Source: Bradyrhizobium sp. LLZ17
GTDB taxonomy: Bacteria > Pseudomonadota > Alphaproteobacteria > Rhizobiales > Xanthobacteraceae
Direction of reading: 5' to 3'
Length of the DNA stretch: 64,000 nucleotides
Assembly: GCF_041200145.1 (NCBI RefSeq)
Contig: NZ_CP165734.1
Span: 992,001 to 1,056,000 of the forward strand
The notes beneath the pieces are model-generated. The model did not search any database. It worked only from the letters and a program-made list of their open reading frames with translations, and had not been told where the DNA came from. Within the stretch, counting starts at the first letter, position 1. The number at the start of each line of letters is the position of its first letter. Shown in pieces: positions 44,083-50,572 of the stretch. The position numbers were made by a program, and so were the translations under genes.

Positions 44083-45431
44083 CTACGGTGTGGCCGAAGG
44101 AGTTGCGCTGACGCTCGGCGACAGAGTTGCGGGCCCAGGAGCTGTCGGCCACGGACTCGCCGGCCAAGGACTCTTCGCGCTGATCATGGCCGATGCGCAC
44201 GATGCCGAGAGCTGTGGCCATACTGGCGCCAGGCTCGTCACCTCGATCTCGAATGTTGTAGCGTTGGGCTTTCCGTCCGGCATCGGCGTGGTTTCGCGGA
44301 CCTGGAGGGTGCGCGAGGCCAGCATCGCCTTGACCATGTCGGAGCCGAGGGCGCCGCTCCAGACCTCGTACTTGCCAACGCGCAGCGGAAACCCTCCGGC
44401 TTCCTGCTTGGTGTCGGCGCTTGCCGCCATCAGGATCGTGCTTTTGCCGACGGCGGTCTCGTCGATCTCGGCCGCGGATCGCAGCGGCACGCGGTCCTTG
44501 TTTTCGCAGGACAGGCGCCACTCCATCATCCGGAACGAGGCGCCGTTCTCCTTCTTCAGCATCGCGAACTTGCTGATGGAGGGCCGCGCTCCCTTCTCCA
44601 GGGTCCACGTCGTCTCGGCCAGTGTTCGCGTATCGATGCCGAAGCGATGGAGCTCGCCTCGCGTCAGCGTATGCGGGCTCTCGAACTTCACTGTCCGGAT
44701 CAAATCATCAAGCTCGTGGCTGATGCCCATCGCCGCCACGAACGCAGTCCGCGCGCGGTTTGACGTCTCGATTTGACGCTGCCTGGCATCCGCGACCAAT
44801 TTCGCCGGCGGATGCCCGTGGATGACGAGCATCAGCCTGGAGTTATGGACCGCCATCGCCGCGTCCGGCGCCACCTCGCGAGATGTCGCCCCGAGAAACA
44901 GGTAACCGCAGGCCGAGTTGCACATCGCATTGCGGGTGGTGAGTTCAGCCTCGACCTCGCCGCCTGCGTTCTTGATCTTGAGGCATGCGGCGTCCAGCTG
45001 CGTGCCCGCGGCGCACGCCGTCGCAATCGTGCGGCCGACGCGCGCGACCGCCTTGCGACTGCGCAGCAACCGCCCGATGACGTAGGACTGCTCCACGTTC
45101 CCGCCCGGCGAATGCAGGTAGATCGGTCGCTGCATGTCCTTGACGCCGGCGAGGAAGCGTCGAATGCGCGGGCCTGCGTCCTGGTCGACCTCGCCCTCGA
45201 TGGCAATCCAGCGGTCGCAGCCCGGCCCGCATGCGTCAGGGCCCCCTTCGCAAGGTAGATCGTCAGCCTGGACTCAAATCCGGCCTTCTCGGCCGGGAGT
45301 CCTTCTGCATGCAATGCACCGGGGATCGACAGCGAGGCCACGAGAAGAAAAAATGCGGGCAAGCATGCAATGAGGGGACCGCGCGGGGAAAGACACGTGC
45401 GGACGTTATACGATGATCGGCGTGACCACAA
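44083..45431 (-). CDS. periplasmic ClpP-fold protein (COG3904 type), frameshifted near 45244
   Basis: An exported protein begins between 45431 (TTG) and about 45389, with a signal peptide ending A-L-H-A-E-G. It runs through R-L-T-I-Y-L-A-K-G, then continues in another frame: C-G-P-G-C-D-R-W-I-A-I-E-G. Adding one G to the five-base run at 45242-45246 joins them. The fold is ClpP/crotonase-like, with L-H-S-P-G-G-N and N-S-A-C-G-Y (possible nucleophile serine) and A-V-H-N-S (possible histidine). The last 40 residues are compositionally odd. Whether it is a protease is uncertain. Confidence 0.65.
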
Positions 45432-45870: not shown

Positions 45871-46593
45871 ATGAACAAGAATTTGTTGCTTGCCGCTGTC
45901 AGCCTTGTCGCGCTCAGCGCGGCTGCGCCGGCGGTGGCTGCTGATCTCGCGGCGCGGCCTTACACCAAGGCGCCTGCGATGGTCGCCACGCTCTATGACT
46001 GGAGCGGCTTCTACATCGGCGTCAACGGCGGCGGCGGTTCGGCGCATTCGACCTGGGATCTGGTCGGCGGCGGTCGCGAGGGTTCGCATGATGCGACCGG
46101 TGGCACCGTCGGTGGTCAGATCGGCTACCGCTGGCAGTCCGGCCAGTGGGTGTTCGGCGTGGAAGGCCAGGGCAACTGGGCCGACTTCTCCGGCGACAAC
46201 GTCAGCGCGCTGTTCGCGACCCGCAACCGCTCGAAGATCGATTCGTTCGGTCTGATCACCGGTCAGATCGGCTACGCCTGGAACAACGTCCTGCTCTACG
46301 TCAAGGGCGGTGCGGCTGTGACCGGCGGCAAGTACGAGGTGTTCAGCACGGCCACCGGCGCGCTGCTGGCCTCGAACGACCAGACCCGCTGGGGCGGCAC
46401 CGTCGGCGCCGGCATCGAGTATGGTTTTGCCCCGAATTGGTCGGTTGGCATCGAGTACAACCACATCTTCCTGCAGGACAAGGACGTCACCTTCGCGCTG
46501 GTGCCGTCGACCGACCGCATCCGTCAGGACGTCGACATGGGCCTCGTTCGCCTGAACTACAAGTTCGGCGGCCCGGTCCTTGCGAAGTACTGA
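45871..46593 (+). CDS. outer membrane beta-barrel protein, Omp31/OmpA-like
   Basis: This is a 240-residue outer-membrane protein with a cleavable signal peptide (A-P-A-V-A-A-D-L-A). The mature part is an eight-stranded barrel with Y-D-W-S-G-F-Y-I-G-V-N-G-G at the first strand, Q-I-G-Y-R-W-Q, G-Y-A-W-N-N-V-L-L-Y, I-E-Y-G-F-A-P-N-W-S-V-G-I-E-Y, and R-L-N-Y-K-F-G-G. These are characteristic of the Brucella Omp31/Omp25 and Bradyrhizobium porin-like family. The start has GGGA upstream. A clear terminator follows at 46624. Confidence 0.93.
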   Translation: MNKNLLLAAVSLVALSAAAPAVAADLAARPYTKAPAMVATLYDWSGFYIGVNGGGGSAHSTWDLVGGGREGSHDATGGTVGGQIGYRWQSGQWVFGVEGQGNWADFSGDNVSALFATRNRSKIDSFGLITGQIGYAWNNVLLYVKGGAAVTGGKYEVFSTATGALLASNDQTRWGGTVGAGIEYGFAPNWSVGIEYNHIFLQDKDVTFALVPSTDRIRQDVDMGLVRLNYKFGGPVLAKY

Positions 46594-46623
46594 GACCAGT
46601 CGCTCCGTTTGAGCGATCGTCGA

Positions 46624-46652
46624 AGCCCGGCCTGATGGCCGGGGCTTTTTAT
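46624..46652 (+). terminator. Rho-independent terminator of the omp gene
   Basis: The stem AGCCCGGCC (46624-46632), loop TGAT, and GGCCGGGGCT (46637-46646) with one bulge are followed by TTTTATT. It lies 31 bases after the stop of the barrel protein gene. Confidence 0.8.
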
Positions 46653-46703
46653 TGTCTGAATTCATCGAGTTAACCATCCCATTTCGAGATGGCTGAGAGA
46701 TGC

Positions 46704-46747
46704 TTGACTCCCGAGAACAAAATGAGAACAATGTTCTTCATACGTTC
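46704..46747 (+). promoter_or_regulatory. SOS promoter with two LexA boxes in a palindromic arrangement
   Basis: The alphaproteobacterial LexA site GAAC-N7-GAAC occurs at 46715-46729 and its inverted form GTTC-N7-GTTC at 46733-46747, with three bases between them. Both have exact half-sites and spacing. They overlap a promoter: TTGACT at 46704-46709 and AACAAT at 46727-46732, spacer 17. LexA bound here would occlude the RNA polymerase site. The target is the 32-residue gene at 46765. Confidence 0.85.
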
Positions 46748-46764
46748 TCAATATGGAGTGAGCC

Positions 46765-46863
46765 ATGTTCAGGATTTTCGTGGAAGAAGCCGCCGCACTG
46801 ACCTCGATCGCGCTGTTCGTCGGGATGATCGCGATCTGGGCCCAGGTACTGCCGCAACTCTGA
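46765..46863 (+). CDS. SOS-regulated 32-residue membrane microprotein (SidA-like)
   Basis: This short open frame of 32 codons starts with ATG behind GGAGTGAG. It reads M-F-R-I-F-V-E-E-A-A-A, then a single hydrophobic helix L-T-S-I-A-L-F-V-G-M-I-A-I-W, ending A-Q-V-L-P-Q-L. It lies 18 bases downstream of two LexA boxes. In Caulobacter the SOS-induced SidA is a 29-residue inner-membrane protein that delays cell division through FtsW/FtsN. The size, topology and regulation of this gene are the same, though I cannot show sequence homology. It is too short for most gene finders. dnaE1 starts 205 bases later and may or may not be on the same transcript. Confidence 0.75.
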   Translation: MFRIFVEEAAALTSIALFVGMIAIWAQVLPQL

Positions 46864-47068
46864 CTCGTGCTCGGCGCAAAACACTTGCCTGGGAACTCGC
46901 GGATGCGAGCTTGGGGAAAACCGGGACGACGCGGCCGATCGGCCGCTCCGGCGTGGACTCCGGCGTGGCGAGCCCTCACCATTGCGAGGCGAGTCGGCCG
47001 GGCGAGTGCATGATGCCTTGAGGAGCCGGTGACCGCTCCATCTCATCTGCAAGAGGCCGTCACGCGAA

Positions 47069-50000
47069 ATGCCGAGCGCCGGATTTGTCCACCTTCACGT
47101 TCACTCGGCCTATTCGCTGCTCAAGGGCTCGATCAAGATCGCCAAGCTCGCCGAGCTTGCCAAGAAAGATCACCAGCCGGCCCTGGCGCTGACCGACACC
47201 GACAACATGTTCGGAGCGCTGGAGTTCTCCGACAAGATGGCGGGCTCGGGCATCCAGCCGATCGTCGGCTGCGAACTCGCGATCGATTTCGGCGATCAGG
47301 ATCCGAATGCCCGCAACGCGCTGCTGCCGTCGCGCATCGTGCTGCTGGCGGCGCAAGAGCGCGGCTATCGCAGCCTGATGCGGCTGAATTCGCGGGCGTT
47401 CCTGGAGACGCCCGACACCCACGCCTGCCACATCAAATTCGACTGGCTCGAGGGCGAGACCGAGGGCCTGATCGCGCTGACGGGCGGTCCGGACGGGCCG
47501 ATCTCGCTGGCGCTGGGCGCCGGCCATCCCGAGCTTGCCGCCGCGCGCTGCGAGCGTCTCGCCAGCCTGTTCGGCGATCGCCTCTATATGGAGCTGCAGC
47601 GTCATGGCCTGGACAAGGAACGGCGGGTCGAGAGCGGCCTGATCGACATCGCGTTCGCAAAAGGCCTGCCGCTGGTTGCGACCAACGAGCCGTATTTCGC
47701 CGCGACGGACGACTACGAAGCGCATGACGCGCTGCTTTGCATCGCCGGCGGCCGGCTAATCGCGGAGACCGAACGCGAGCAGCTCACGCCCGATCACCGC
47801 TTCAAGACGCGGGCCGAGATGGCGGTGCTGTTTGCCGATGTTCCGGAGGCGCTGGCCTCCACCGTCGAGATCGCCGAACGCTGCTCGTTCCGGCCGATGA
47901 CGCGCAAGCCGATCCTGCCGTTCTTCACCGTCGGCGCCGCGTCGAGCTCGGATGCGGCCGCGGTCGAGGCGGCGGAATTGAAGCGGCAGGCGGAGGAGGG
48001 GCTCGCCAATCGGCTGCGCGTGCACGGCCTGTCGCAGGGCACCACCGAGGAGGACTACAGCCAGCGGCTGGCGTTCGAGCTCGACGTCATCATGCGCATG
48101 AAGTACGCGGGCTACTTCCTGATCGTGTCCGATTTCATCAAATGGGCCAAGGGCCAGGGCATACCGGTCGGACCGGGCCGCGGTTCAGGCGCGGGCTCGC
48201 TGGTGGCCTGGGCGCTGACCATCACCGATCTCGACCCGATCAAGTTCGGGCTGCTGTTCGAGCGCTTCCTCAATCCGGAACGCGTCTCGATGCCGGACTT
48301 CGACATCGACTTCTGCCAGGACCGCCGCGGCGAGGTGATCCAGTACGTCCAGCAGCGCTATGGCCGCGACCAGGTGGCGCAGATCATCACCTTCGGGACG
48401 CTGCAGGCGCGCGGCGTGCTGCGCGACGTCGGCCGCGTGCTGCAAATGCCTTATGGCCAGGTCGACAAGCTCACAAAACTGGTGCCGCAGAATCCGGCCG
48501 CGCCGGTGACGCTGGCGGCCGCGATCGAGAGCGAGCCGAAGCTGCAGGCGTTTCGCGACGAGGACCCGGTGGTGGCGCGCGCCTTCGACATCGCGCAGCG
48601 CCTCGAAGGCCTGACCCGCCATGCCTCGACCCACGCGGCCGGTATCGTCATCGGCGATCGCCCCCTGAGCGAACTGGTGCCGCTCTACCGCGATCCCAAA
48701 TCCGACATGCCGGTGACCCAGTTCAACATGAAATGGGTCGAGCCGGCCGGCCTCGTCAAATTCGACTTCCTCGGCCTGAAGACGCTGACCGTGCTCGACG
48801 TCGCGATCAAGCTGCTCAAGCCGCGCGACATCCACGTCGATCTCGCCACGTTGCCGATCGACGATGCCGAGAGTTATCAGATGCTGGCGCGCGGCGACGT
48901 GGTCGGCGTGTTCCAGGTTGAAAGCCAGGGCATGCGGCGCGCGCTGATCGACATGCGCCCCGACCGTTTCGAGGACATCATCGCGCTGGTGGCGCTGTAT
49001 CGCCCGGGTCCGATGGCGAACATCCCGACCTATTGCATGCGCAAGCACGGCGACGAGGAGCCGGAATATCTGCATCCCGTGCTGGAGCCGATCCTGAAGG
49101 AGACCTTCGGCGTCATCATCTACCAGGAACAGGTGATGCAGATCGCGCAGGTGATGTCGGGCTATTCGCTCGGCGACGCCGACCTGCTGCGCCGCGCCAT
49201 GGGCAAGAAGATCCGCTCCGAGATGGAGAAGCAGCGCGAGATCTTCGTCGCGGGCGCGGTGAAGAACGGCGTGCCGAAGGGGCAGGCCGACACGATTTTC
49301 GAGCTGTTGGCGAAGTTCGCCGACTACGGCTTCAACAAGAGCCACGCAGCGGCCTATGCGCTGGTGTCCTACCACACCGCCTACATGAAGGCGCATTACC
49401 CGGTGGAGTTCATCGCGGCGTCGATGACGCTCGATCTCAACAACACCGACAAGCTCTCCGAATTCCGCTCGGAGGCGCAGCGCCTCGGGATCAAGGTCGA
49501 GCCGCCGAACATCAACCGTTCCGGCGCGACCTTCGAGGTCGGCGACAAGACCATCTATTACGCGCTCGCCGCGCTGAAGGGCGTCGGCATTGCCGCGGTC
49601 GAGCAGATCATCGCGGAGCGGACCAGGAACGGCCTGTTCACCTCGCTGGCCGACTTCGCCGCACGCGTCAATCCGCGATCGGTCAACAAGCGCATCATCG
49701 AAAGCCTCGCGGCCGCCGGGGCCTTCGACACGCTGGAGCCGAACCGCGCCCGCGTCTTCGCCGGTGCGGACTCGATCCTGGCCGCCTGCCAGCGCGCGCA
49801 CCAGGCCGAGACCATCGGCCAGAACGACATGTTCGGCATGTCGGCGGACGCGCCGACCATCATGCTGCCGCAGGTCGAGCCGTGGCTGCCGGCCGAGCGG
49901 CTGCGCCGCGAATATGATGCGATCGGCTTCTTCCTGTCGGGCCATCCGCTCGACGATTACGCGACGGTGCTGAAGCGGCTGCGGGTGCAGAGCTGGGCGG

Positions 50001-50572
50001 AGTTTTCGCGCGCGGTGAAAACCGGCGCCACCGCCGGCAAGGTCGCAGCCACCGTGGTGTCGCGCATGGAGCGACGCACCAAGACCGGCAACAAGATGGG
50101 CATCATGGGGCTGTCTGATCCCACGGGCCACTTCGAGGCGGTGCTGTTCTCGGAGGGGCTCGCGCAATATCGCGACGTGCTGGAGCCTGGCGCAGCCGTG
50201 CTGCTCCAACTCGGCGCCGAGCTCCAGGGCGAGGACGTTCGCGCCCGCGTGCTGCACGCCGAACCGCTGGATGAGGCCGCCGCCAAGACGCAGAAGGGCC
50301 TGCGCATCTTCCTGCGCGACACCAAGCCGCTGGATTCAATCGCCAAGCGTCTGGCCGGCCCCGAGATGGCCGGCGCGAACGGCGCAGCACCGAGGGTCGG
50401 CAGTCCCGGCATCGCACCGCGCTCCAACGGCGACGGCGAGGTCTCGCTGGTGATCATGCTCGACCTCGAGACCGAGGTGGAAATGAAGCTGCCAGGCCGC
50501 TTCAAGGTTTCGCCGCAGATCGCCGGCGCCATCAAGGCGGTCGCGGGCGTGGTGGACGTGCAGCAGGTCTAG
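47069..50572 (+). CDS. dnaE: DNA polymerase III subunit alpha
   Basis: This is the replicative polymerase catalytic subunit, 1167 residues. The N-terminal PHP domain has H-L-H-V-H-S-A-Y-S at residues 8-16. The palm motif P-D-F-D-I-D-F-C-Q-D lies near 409, with G-P-G-R-G-S-G-A-G-S-L-V just before it. The later part has R-A-M-G-K-K and F-N-K-S-H-A-A-A-Y-A, and the OB-fold is near 990. Length and the N-terminal pattern identify DnaE1 rather than the shorter SOS mutasome DnaE2. It normally follows lolD; here the accessory block separates them. Confidence 0.96.
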   Translation: MPSAGFVHLHVHSAYSLLKGSIKIAKLAELAKKDHQPALALTDTDNMFGALEFSDKMAGSGIQPIVGCELAIDFGDQDPNARNALLPSRIVLLAAQERGYRSLMRLNSRAFLETPDTHACHIKFDWLEGETEGLIALTGGPDGPISLALGAGHPELAAARCERLASLFGDRLYMELQRHGLDKERRVESGLIDIAFAKGLPLVATNEPYFAATDDYEAHDALLCIAGGRLIAETEREQLTPDHRFKTRAEMAVLFADVPEALASTVEIAERCSFRPMTRKPILPFFTVGAASSSDAAAVEAAELKRQAEEGLANRLRVHGLSQGTTEEDYSQRLAFELDVIMRMKYAGYFLIVSDFIKWAKGQGIPVGPGRGSGAGSLVAWALTITDLDPIKFGLLFERFLNPERVSMPDFDIDFCQDRRGEVIQYVQQRYGRDQVAQIITFGTLQARGVLRDVGRVLQMPYGQVDKLTKLVPQNPAAPVTLAAAIESEPKLQAFRDEDPVVARAFDIAQRLEGLTRHASTHAAGIVIGDRPLSELVPLYRDPKSDMPVTQFNMKWVEPAGLVKFDFLGLKTLTVLDVAIKLLKPRDIHVDLATLPIDDAESYQMLARGDVVGVFQVESQGMRRALIDMRPDRFEDIIALVALYRPGPMANIPTYCMRKHGDEEPEYLHPVLEPILKETFGVIIYQEQVMQIAQVMSGYSLGDADLLRRAMGKKIRSEMEKQREIFVAGAVKNGVPKGQADTIFELLAKFADYGFNKSHAAAYALVSYHTAYMKAHYPVEFIAASMTLDLNNTDKLSEFRSEAQRLGIKVEPPNINRSGATFEVGDKTIYYALAALKGVGIAAVEQIIAERTRNGLFTSLADFAARVNPRSVNKRIIESLAAAGAFDTLEPNRARVFAGADSILAACQRAHQAETIGQNDMFGMSADAPTIMLPQVEPWLPAERLRREYDAIGFFLSGHPLDDYATVLKRLRVQSWAEFSRAVKTGATAGKVAATVVSRMERRTKTGNKMGIMGLSDPTGHFEAVLFSEGLAQYRDVLEPGAAVLLQLGAELQGEDVRARVLHAEPLDEAAAKTQKGLRIFLRDTKPLDSIAKRLAGPEMAGANGAAPRVGSPGIAPRSNGDGEVSLVIMLDLETEVEMKLPGRFKVSPQIAGAIKAVAGVVDVQQV

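Follow-up and report, generated by a model that had tools for sequence, protein, structure and literature searches.

The window analysed here is a stretch of 64,000 nucleotides (G000:C1:992001-1056000) from a host genome that consists of one 7.8-Mb contig. A promoter, two LexA-type boxes, a ribosome binding site, and a short frame form a compact unit within the 365 bp located 5' of dnaE. In window coordinates, the features of the locus are as follows:

45871-46593, outer-membrane-type protein gene, the upstream neighbour (assigned by eye)
46626-46643, plus strand, terminator-like hairpin located 3' of the outer-membrane-type gene, separating that gene from the promoter of the sidA-type gene
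46704-46732, plus strand, promoter-like hexamers TTGACT (46704-46709) and AACAAT (46727-46732) with a 17-bp gap, 9 of 12 positions matching
46715-46729, minus strand, LexA-type box 1, GAACAAAATGAGAAC, which reads GAAC-N7-GAAC on the plus strand and GTTC-N7-GTTC on the minus strand
46733-46747, plus strand, LexA-type box 2, GTTCTTCATACGTTC, GTTC-N7-GTTC, in mirror order to box 1
46755-46758, plus strand, ribosome binding site GGAG, 6 bases 5' of the ATG by direct reading
46765-46863, plus strand, sidA-type gene of 32 codons with one predicted transmembrane helix, MFRIFVEEAAALTSIALFVGMIAIWAQVLPQL
47069-50572, plus strand, dnaE, encoding the replicative DNA polymerase III alpha subunit (DnaE1)

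The paired hexamers were the only promoter-like site in positions 46550-47120, and the two boxes, separated by a 3-bp spacer (AAT), are placed between and over them. The original prediction had described two boxes in mirror order over a promoter, followed by a ribosome site and, after it, a frame of 32 codons with one membrane helix, and each of these elements was confirmed. It had not mentioned the next gene downstream, which is dnaE, on the same strand and across a gap of 205 bp in which no terminator-like site was found. The DnaE encoded here is 86% identical to that of a Bradyrhizobium MAG, 83% to that of Tardiphaga, and 80-81% to those of Rhodopseudomonas, values in keeping with the genus Bradyrhizobium.

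Two observations concern the neighbouring genes. The outer-membrane-type protein carries the motif LAARPYTKAP, as does a similar protein at L239 1704-2465; this pair adjoins two SOS loci, sidA-dnaE and uvrA, possibly by coincidence. On the minus strand at 44083-45135, a frame has a ClpP-like start (IYLHSPGGNVEQSY, read by eye) and possibly a ClpP-like fold.

The short frame and its double operator

The 32-codon frame is a real gene whose amino acids are under selection. When the 32-residue protein was used alone as a query, with the boxes ignored, matches were obtained in 107 of the 149 genomes of the family, representing 35 of 47 genera; the query found no match in the other 42 genomes. DnaE was encoded behind the short frame in 29 of 30 family loci. 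The ratio pN/pS over 35 family sequences was 0.18, as compared to a mean of 0.93 (sd 0.32, lowest value 0.47) in a column-permutation control (200 permutations, on 12 of the 35 sequences). Hydropathy indicated one hydrophobic stretch in the 32-residue window protein and likewise in relatives. Pfam contained no family for this protein, NCBIfam gave one match far below the cut-off, and no Rfam family reached the gathering threshold in 46600-47120.

A single GTTCN7GTTC box is worthless as evidence here: the host genome contains 202 such sites against 205 for a reversed control, which is the frequency expected by chance. The mirrored pair, with a spacer of 0-12 bp allowed, is confined to one place in the 7.8-Mb genome, and the control had no matches; the pair was absent from 300 simulated windows generated with the dinucleotide frequencies of the window. 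Conservation of the pair was surveyed in 35 family loci picked without regard to boxes, namely the 30 best-scoring loci of the family search plus five named genomes. The double operator was intact in 34 of them and had the 3-bp spacer in 33; TTGAC was found 9-11 bp ahead of the first box in 34. The lone locus with an imperfect double operator (L040) has one altered half-site base. The double operator is still kept at L037, where 86 bp separate its end from the start codon, versus 17 in the window. The check for conservation in relatives that had been proposed with the original prediction thus came out in its favour; the outcome named as refuting it, boxes retained after loss of the frame, was not seen, the short frame being conserved together with the boxes.

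The original prediction had also placed the frame under LexA control, a claim strengthened by boxes of the same type elsewhere in the host genome. The host lexA gene (G000:C1:1077344-1078045) has GTTCGATATGTGTTC just upstream; the uvrA box, GTTCTTCCTACGTTC, differs from box 2 by one base; and the 15-mer upstream of a Ku gene (L231, G000:C1:2771866-2771880) is identical to box 1. A further box (L237, G000:C1:2372374-2372388) is common to an imuB-type operon and a divergent gene encoding a uracil-DNA-glycosylase domain joined to DUF4130; the gene before imuB was read as imuA by eye and had no match in Pfam. These sites belong to 12 box regions that were picked non-randomly, for how they are spelled or where they lie, out of the listed sites, which make up about half of the 202; four of the 12 lie at repair or SOS genes (lexA, imuB, uvrA, and Ku), the other eight having no obvious repair link. 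Such a sample can demonstrate the type of a box, not its frequency. In type, the boxes of the window match those of the host genome's LexA, which presumably binds them. End joining may also be under LexA in this genome. A second Ku gene is present in L241, about 550 bp from the box at that locus.

Mirrored double GAAC/GTTC boxes with spacers of 10-11 bp were also noticed 5' of lexA, a gene assigned by eye, in two other families of the order (L014, L016, L018, L020, L021, L023, L293, and L295). Paired operators are therefore also found at genes other than those of the sidA type.

Relationship to Caulobacter SidA

The resemblance to SidA of Caulobacter noted in the original prediction goes further than analogy: the two share the dnaE neighbour, their operators are related, and profiles point to homology. 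To locate the Caulobacter frames, named genomes were reached through CtrA, dnaE was located, and the stretch upstream was read. The same or nearly the same 29-residue frame was present in C. hibisci and in Caulobacter sp. D5, BK020, and AP07, ending 33-38 bp before the DnaE start as read here. These frames come from congeners of C. crescentus and were equated with SidA by locus number, not by published sequence: CCNA_02004, which we take to be CC1927, adjoins dnaE. In the sources consulted, sidA bears the number CCNA_02004 (PMC11034885) and Caulobacter dnaE the number CC1926 (PMC1839093), and SidA is described as an inner membrane protein of 29 residues that binds FtsW (PMC4211646). Ahead of the frame, all four Caulobacter loci carry GAAC-N7-GAAT and GAAC-N7-CAAC in tandem; none of the four contains an exact GTTCN7GTTC box.

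A gapless alignment of the cores of the window protein and the Caulobacter frame has E, A, L, S, A, F, V, and M in common. Pairwise BLASTP of the window protein against the Caulobacter 29-mer found nothing at E 100, and a profile built from 27 distinct family sequences gave the Caulobacter frames E-values of only 0.12-0.38 before iteration; the case for homology therefore rests on iterated profiles and on the neighbouring gene. The profile was searched against 1,900 stop-bounded fragments, from both strands, of 90 dnaE-linked regions. Matches at E<0.02 were added at each iteration, those from Caulobacterales never, and 95,000 shuffled fragments served as the control. All fragments were cut to their last 33 residues; longer tails (up to 42) can carry translated LexA-box DNA, which inflates scores. 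After iteration without any Caulobacterales sequence, the four Caulobacter frames were matched at E 2.0e-6 to 2.8e-6. The final round yielded 29 matches below 0.05, none on the minus strand, while the 95,000 shuffled fragments produced two scores below 0.05; their lowest E-value was 0.015 in that round and 0.0036 over all rounds. When a Rhizobiales set was aligned with a Caulobacterales set by hhalign, the alignment spanned 21 columns and kept the same register, with E 2.8e-5 and a probability of 74. An unplanned test was provided by L212 (Methylobacterium tarhaniae), one of the 90 regions but left untested in the profile run; its frame, unseen by the profile, was matched at E 5.9e-4 and has an exact box, GAACAAAACAAGAAC. 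The profile matches provide statistical support for reading the likeness to SidA as homology.

The window protein and SidA are thus both about 30 residues long, with one helix, a LexA-type control region, a position just 5' of dnaE, an N-terminal positive charge, and the core E/D-x-x-A-L-x-S-x3-F. They differ in length (32 residues here, 29 in Caulobacter), in the motif near the end (WAQ here, VAQ in Caulobacter), and in their operators, the tandem inexact boxes of Caulobacter contrasting with the mirrored double operator and 3-bp spacer found here.

Across 46 aligned members (24 to 36 residues), an acidic residue (D or E) occupies position 8 in 43, position 12 holds L, F, or I without exception, and S or A is found at position 14 in 39. 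F18 is present in 38 and W25 in 35; the W25 of Rhizobiales members and the W19 of Caulobacterales members fall on different helix turns. Every one of the 46 has K or R within its first 8 residues, as compared to 10 within the last 8, a bias which by the positive-inside rule places the N-terminus in the cytoplasm. The host genome also encodes FtsW, 45% identical to that of C. hibisci (170 of 375 residues) and sharing with it A31, F145, and A246. Changes at these three sites suppress SidA in C. crescentus, according to PMC4211646; the agreement lends the SidA reading weak support.

Distribution in Alphaproteobacteria

Searches beyond the family used a 24-sequence profile, A1, with a cut-off of E<=0.01 for both order and class; its rows from L066, L215, L228, and L230 were chosen by box and position, not by profile. 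In the order, A1 matched 128 of 297 genomes, where about 3 would be expected from the E-value alone, and matches inside frames longer than 100 residues may also be due to chance. In the class, it matched 21 of 289 genomes, the host included; 9 of the 20 besides the host either served as rows of A1 or are identical to such a row, which guarantees their match (G082, G440, G445, G496, G511, G550, G552, G646, and G662). dnaE was located just downstream on the same strand in 17 of the 20 (14 judged by coordinates, 3 by fetched loci), the exceptions being G117, G650, and G556. G650 has no exact box, and both it and G556 may be chance matches. The match in G117 (L282, G117:C1:493231-493320) is a sidA-type gene away from dnaE that has kept its LexA box, 47 bp before the start codon; it is akin to the Methylobacterium frame L215, itself a row of A1.

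Among 40 relatives, hand-picked from the better profile matches at one to four per family, an exact LexA box lay within 160 bp in 33 and dnaE behind the frame in 32; three of the seven that lacked an exact box had a near one, and eight had no dnaE motif in the stretch fetched. A comparison of 60 class loci found a box within 600 bp at 11 of 11 loci with a sidA-type frame versus 3 of 49 without (Fisher p 1e-9), the frame criterion being a profile E<0.25 and four of the 11 being weak at 0.13-0.20.

The A1 profile missed a set of still shorter frames, of about 24 residues, with a K/R-D/E-x-C-A-L core. They were found in a further family at L288, L289, L290, and L291 (G067, G103, G134, and G021), each preceded by mirrored boxes with a 3-bp spacer; a dnaE-like start followed one of the four, 223 bp on in G067. 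They look like the shortest members of the SidA family. Named genera with members include Rhodopseudomonas, Afipia, Tardiphaga, Microvirga, Alsobacter, Cucumibacter, Devosia, Pseudovibrio, Aurantimonas, Hoeflea, Methylobacterium (Leaf112 by box and position), Phenylobacterium, and Brevundimonas. No sidA-type frame was found in the upstream stretch of Mesorhizobium (L217), Oryzicola (L216), Methylobacterium bullatum (L208), or Brevundimonas bacteroides (L227).

Several loci were less regular. At L105 (G536), L112 (G437), and L115 (G475) a LexA-type box precedes dnaE, with no sidA-type frame by profile; the 35-residue membrane frame at L115 may be a divergent member. In the metagenome assembly of Brevundimonas sp. 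SSC2 (L224), the frame behind the box begins like those of Caulobacterales and then diverges, and looks interrupted.

Proposed function and alternatives

The 32-residue frame is very probably the ortholog of Caulobacter SidA, the SOS-induced inhibitor of the FtsW/FtsI/FtsN septal synthase. For the present organism, binding of the operator by LexA, induction, contact with FtsW, and arrest of division are all inferred, and the proposed order of events is as follows. In undamaged cells, the mirrored operator would be occupied by two adjacent LexA dimers that keep the promoter shut. Once DNA is damaged, RecA filaments would form and trigger self-cleavage of LexA, opening the promoter and allowing the 32-residue protein to be made. 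Its positively charged N-terminus would stay in the cytoplasm while the single helix inserts in the inner membrane, where it would bind FtsW and keep the FtsW/FtsI/FtsN septal peptidoglycan synthase inactive. Cells would then elongate without dividing until LexA returns. Tight repression would matter for such a protein, because loss of lexA in C. crescentus is described as causing extreme filamentation through sidA (PMC12700426). The double operator may thus serve to repress more tightly a protein whose leaky expression would stop cells from dividing.

The same size class, single helix, and LexA-type boxes would also suit an SOS-induced membrane toxin, the helix of which would slow growth by depolarising or piercing the inner membrane and would have no specific target in division, and a double operator would be equally understandable if the protein were lethal once unleashed. 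TisB and DinQ of Escherichia coli are both SOS-controlled single-helix peptides in this size range, but they are membrane-active toxins under antisense RNA control and have other neighbour genes. No RNA family was recognized in the region by the Rfam search described above, although Rfam might not include an antisense RNA encoded locally. We consider a toxin of this type very unlikely; both the sequence and the neighbour match SidA-type frames, whose Caulobacter member acts on FtsW in the account of PMC4211646.

The position of the frame suggests another role, that of a regulatory leader for dnaE, in which the boxes would bring the replicase under SOS induction and dnaE would be tuned by ribosomes translating the short frame. 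The conserved neighbourhood, and the same-strand gap of 205 bp to dnaE with no terminator-like site found in it, fit this role. On the other hand, selection at this frame acts on amino acids, not on reading alone, as the pN/pS of 0.18 indicates; the frame lies at very different distances from dnaE in different loci; the copy at L282, away from dnaE, keeps both box and sequence; and 46 of the 49 class dnaE loci without a frame are also without a box. We consider a leader function very unlikely. Chance boxes before a spurious frame, for which the chance frequency of single boxes in the genome might be cited, are hardly credible where frame and double operator are conserved together and the mirrored pair occupies one place in the genome, and are refuted by pN/pS and operator conservation.

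As a SidA ortholog, the protein would join other damage-induced division inhibitors, likened here by their descriptions. DidA of Caulobacter crescentus is likewise a damage-induced membrane division inhibitor that acts on the FtsW/FtsI/FtsN complex, but it is SOS-independent and binds FtsN, as reported in PMC4211646. YneA (Bacillus subtilis), SosA (Staphylococcus aureus), and ChiZ (Mycobacterium), from other phyla, are SOS-induced membrane proteins that block late division; a LysM domain is present in ChiZ, and SosA contains an extended region (PMC13396833). The same source models YneA, SosA, ChiZ, and SidA at low confidence on TM7 of FtsW, with SidA on the opposite side.

The literature searched contained no report of SidA homologs outside Caulobacter and no paper on how other alphaproteobacteria halt division upon DNA damage; that search was incomplete, and we make no claim of a first report. 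What is new here is a well-supported member of the SidA type, together with evidence that SidA's kind constitutes a family in Alphaproteobacteria. It is likely that SidA is an old SOS checkpoint protein of this class that has travelled with dnaE and is carried by much of the order, by Caulobacterales, and by other families of the class. It would have been overlooked on account of its small size (24-36 residues) and fast divergence; two families of the order would keep it repressed by two mirrored LexA boxes set 3 bp apart, and one of these families would have shortened it to about 24 residues. The natural variation of the 46 aligned members, with their near-fixed acidic residue, F, and W, would provide a map of the side of the helix that faces the target. 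If the reading is correct, a SidA ortholog before dnaE would be the means by which Bradyrhizobium, Rhodopseudomonas, Afipia, Tardiphaga, and many others stop division in response to DNA damage.
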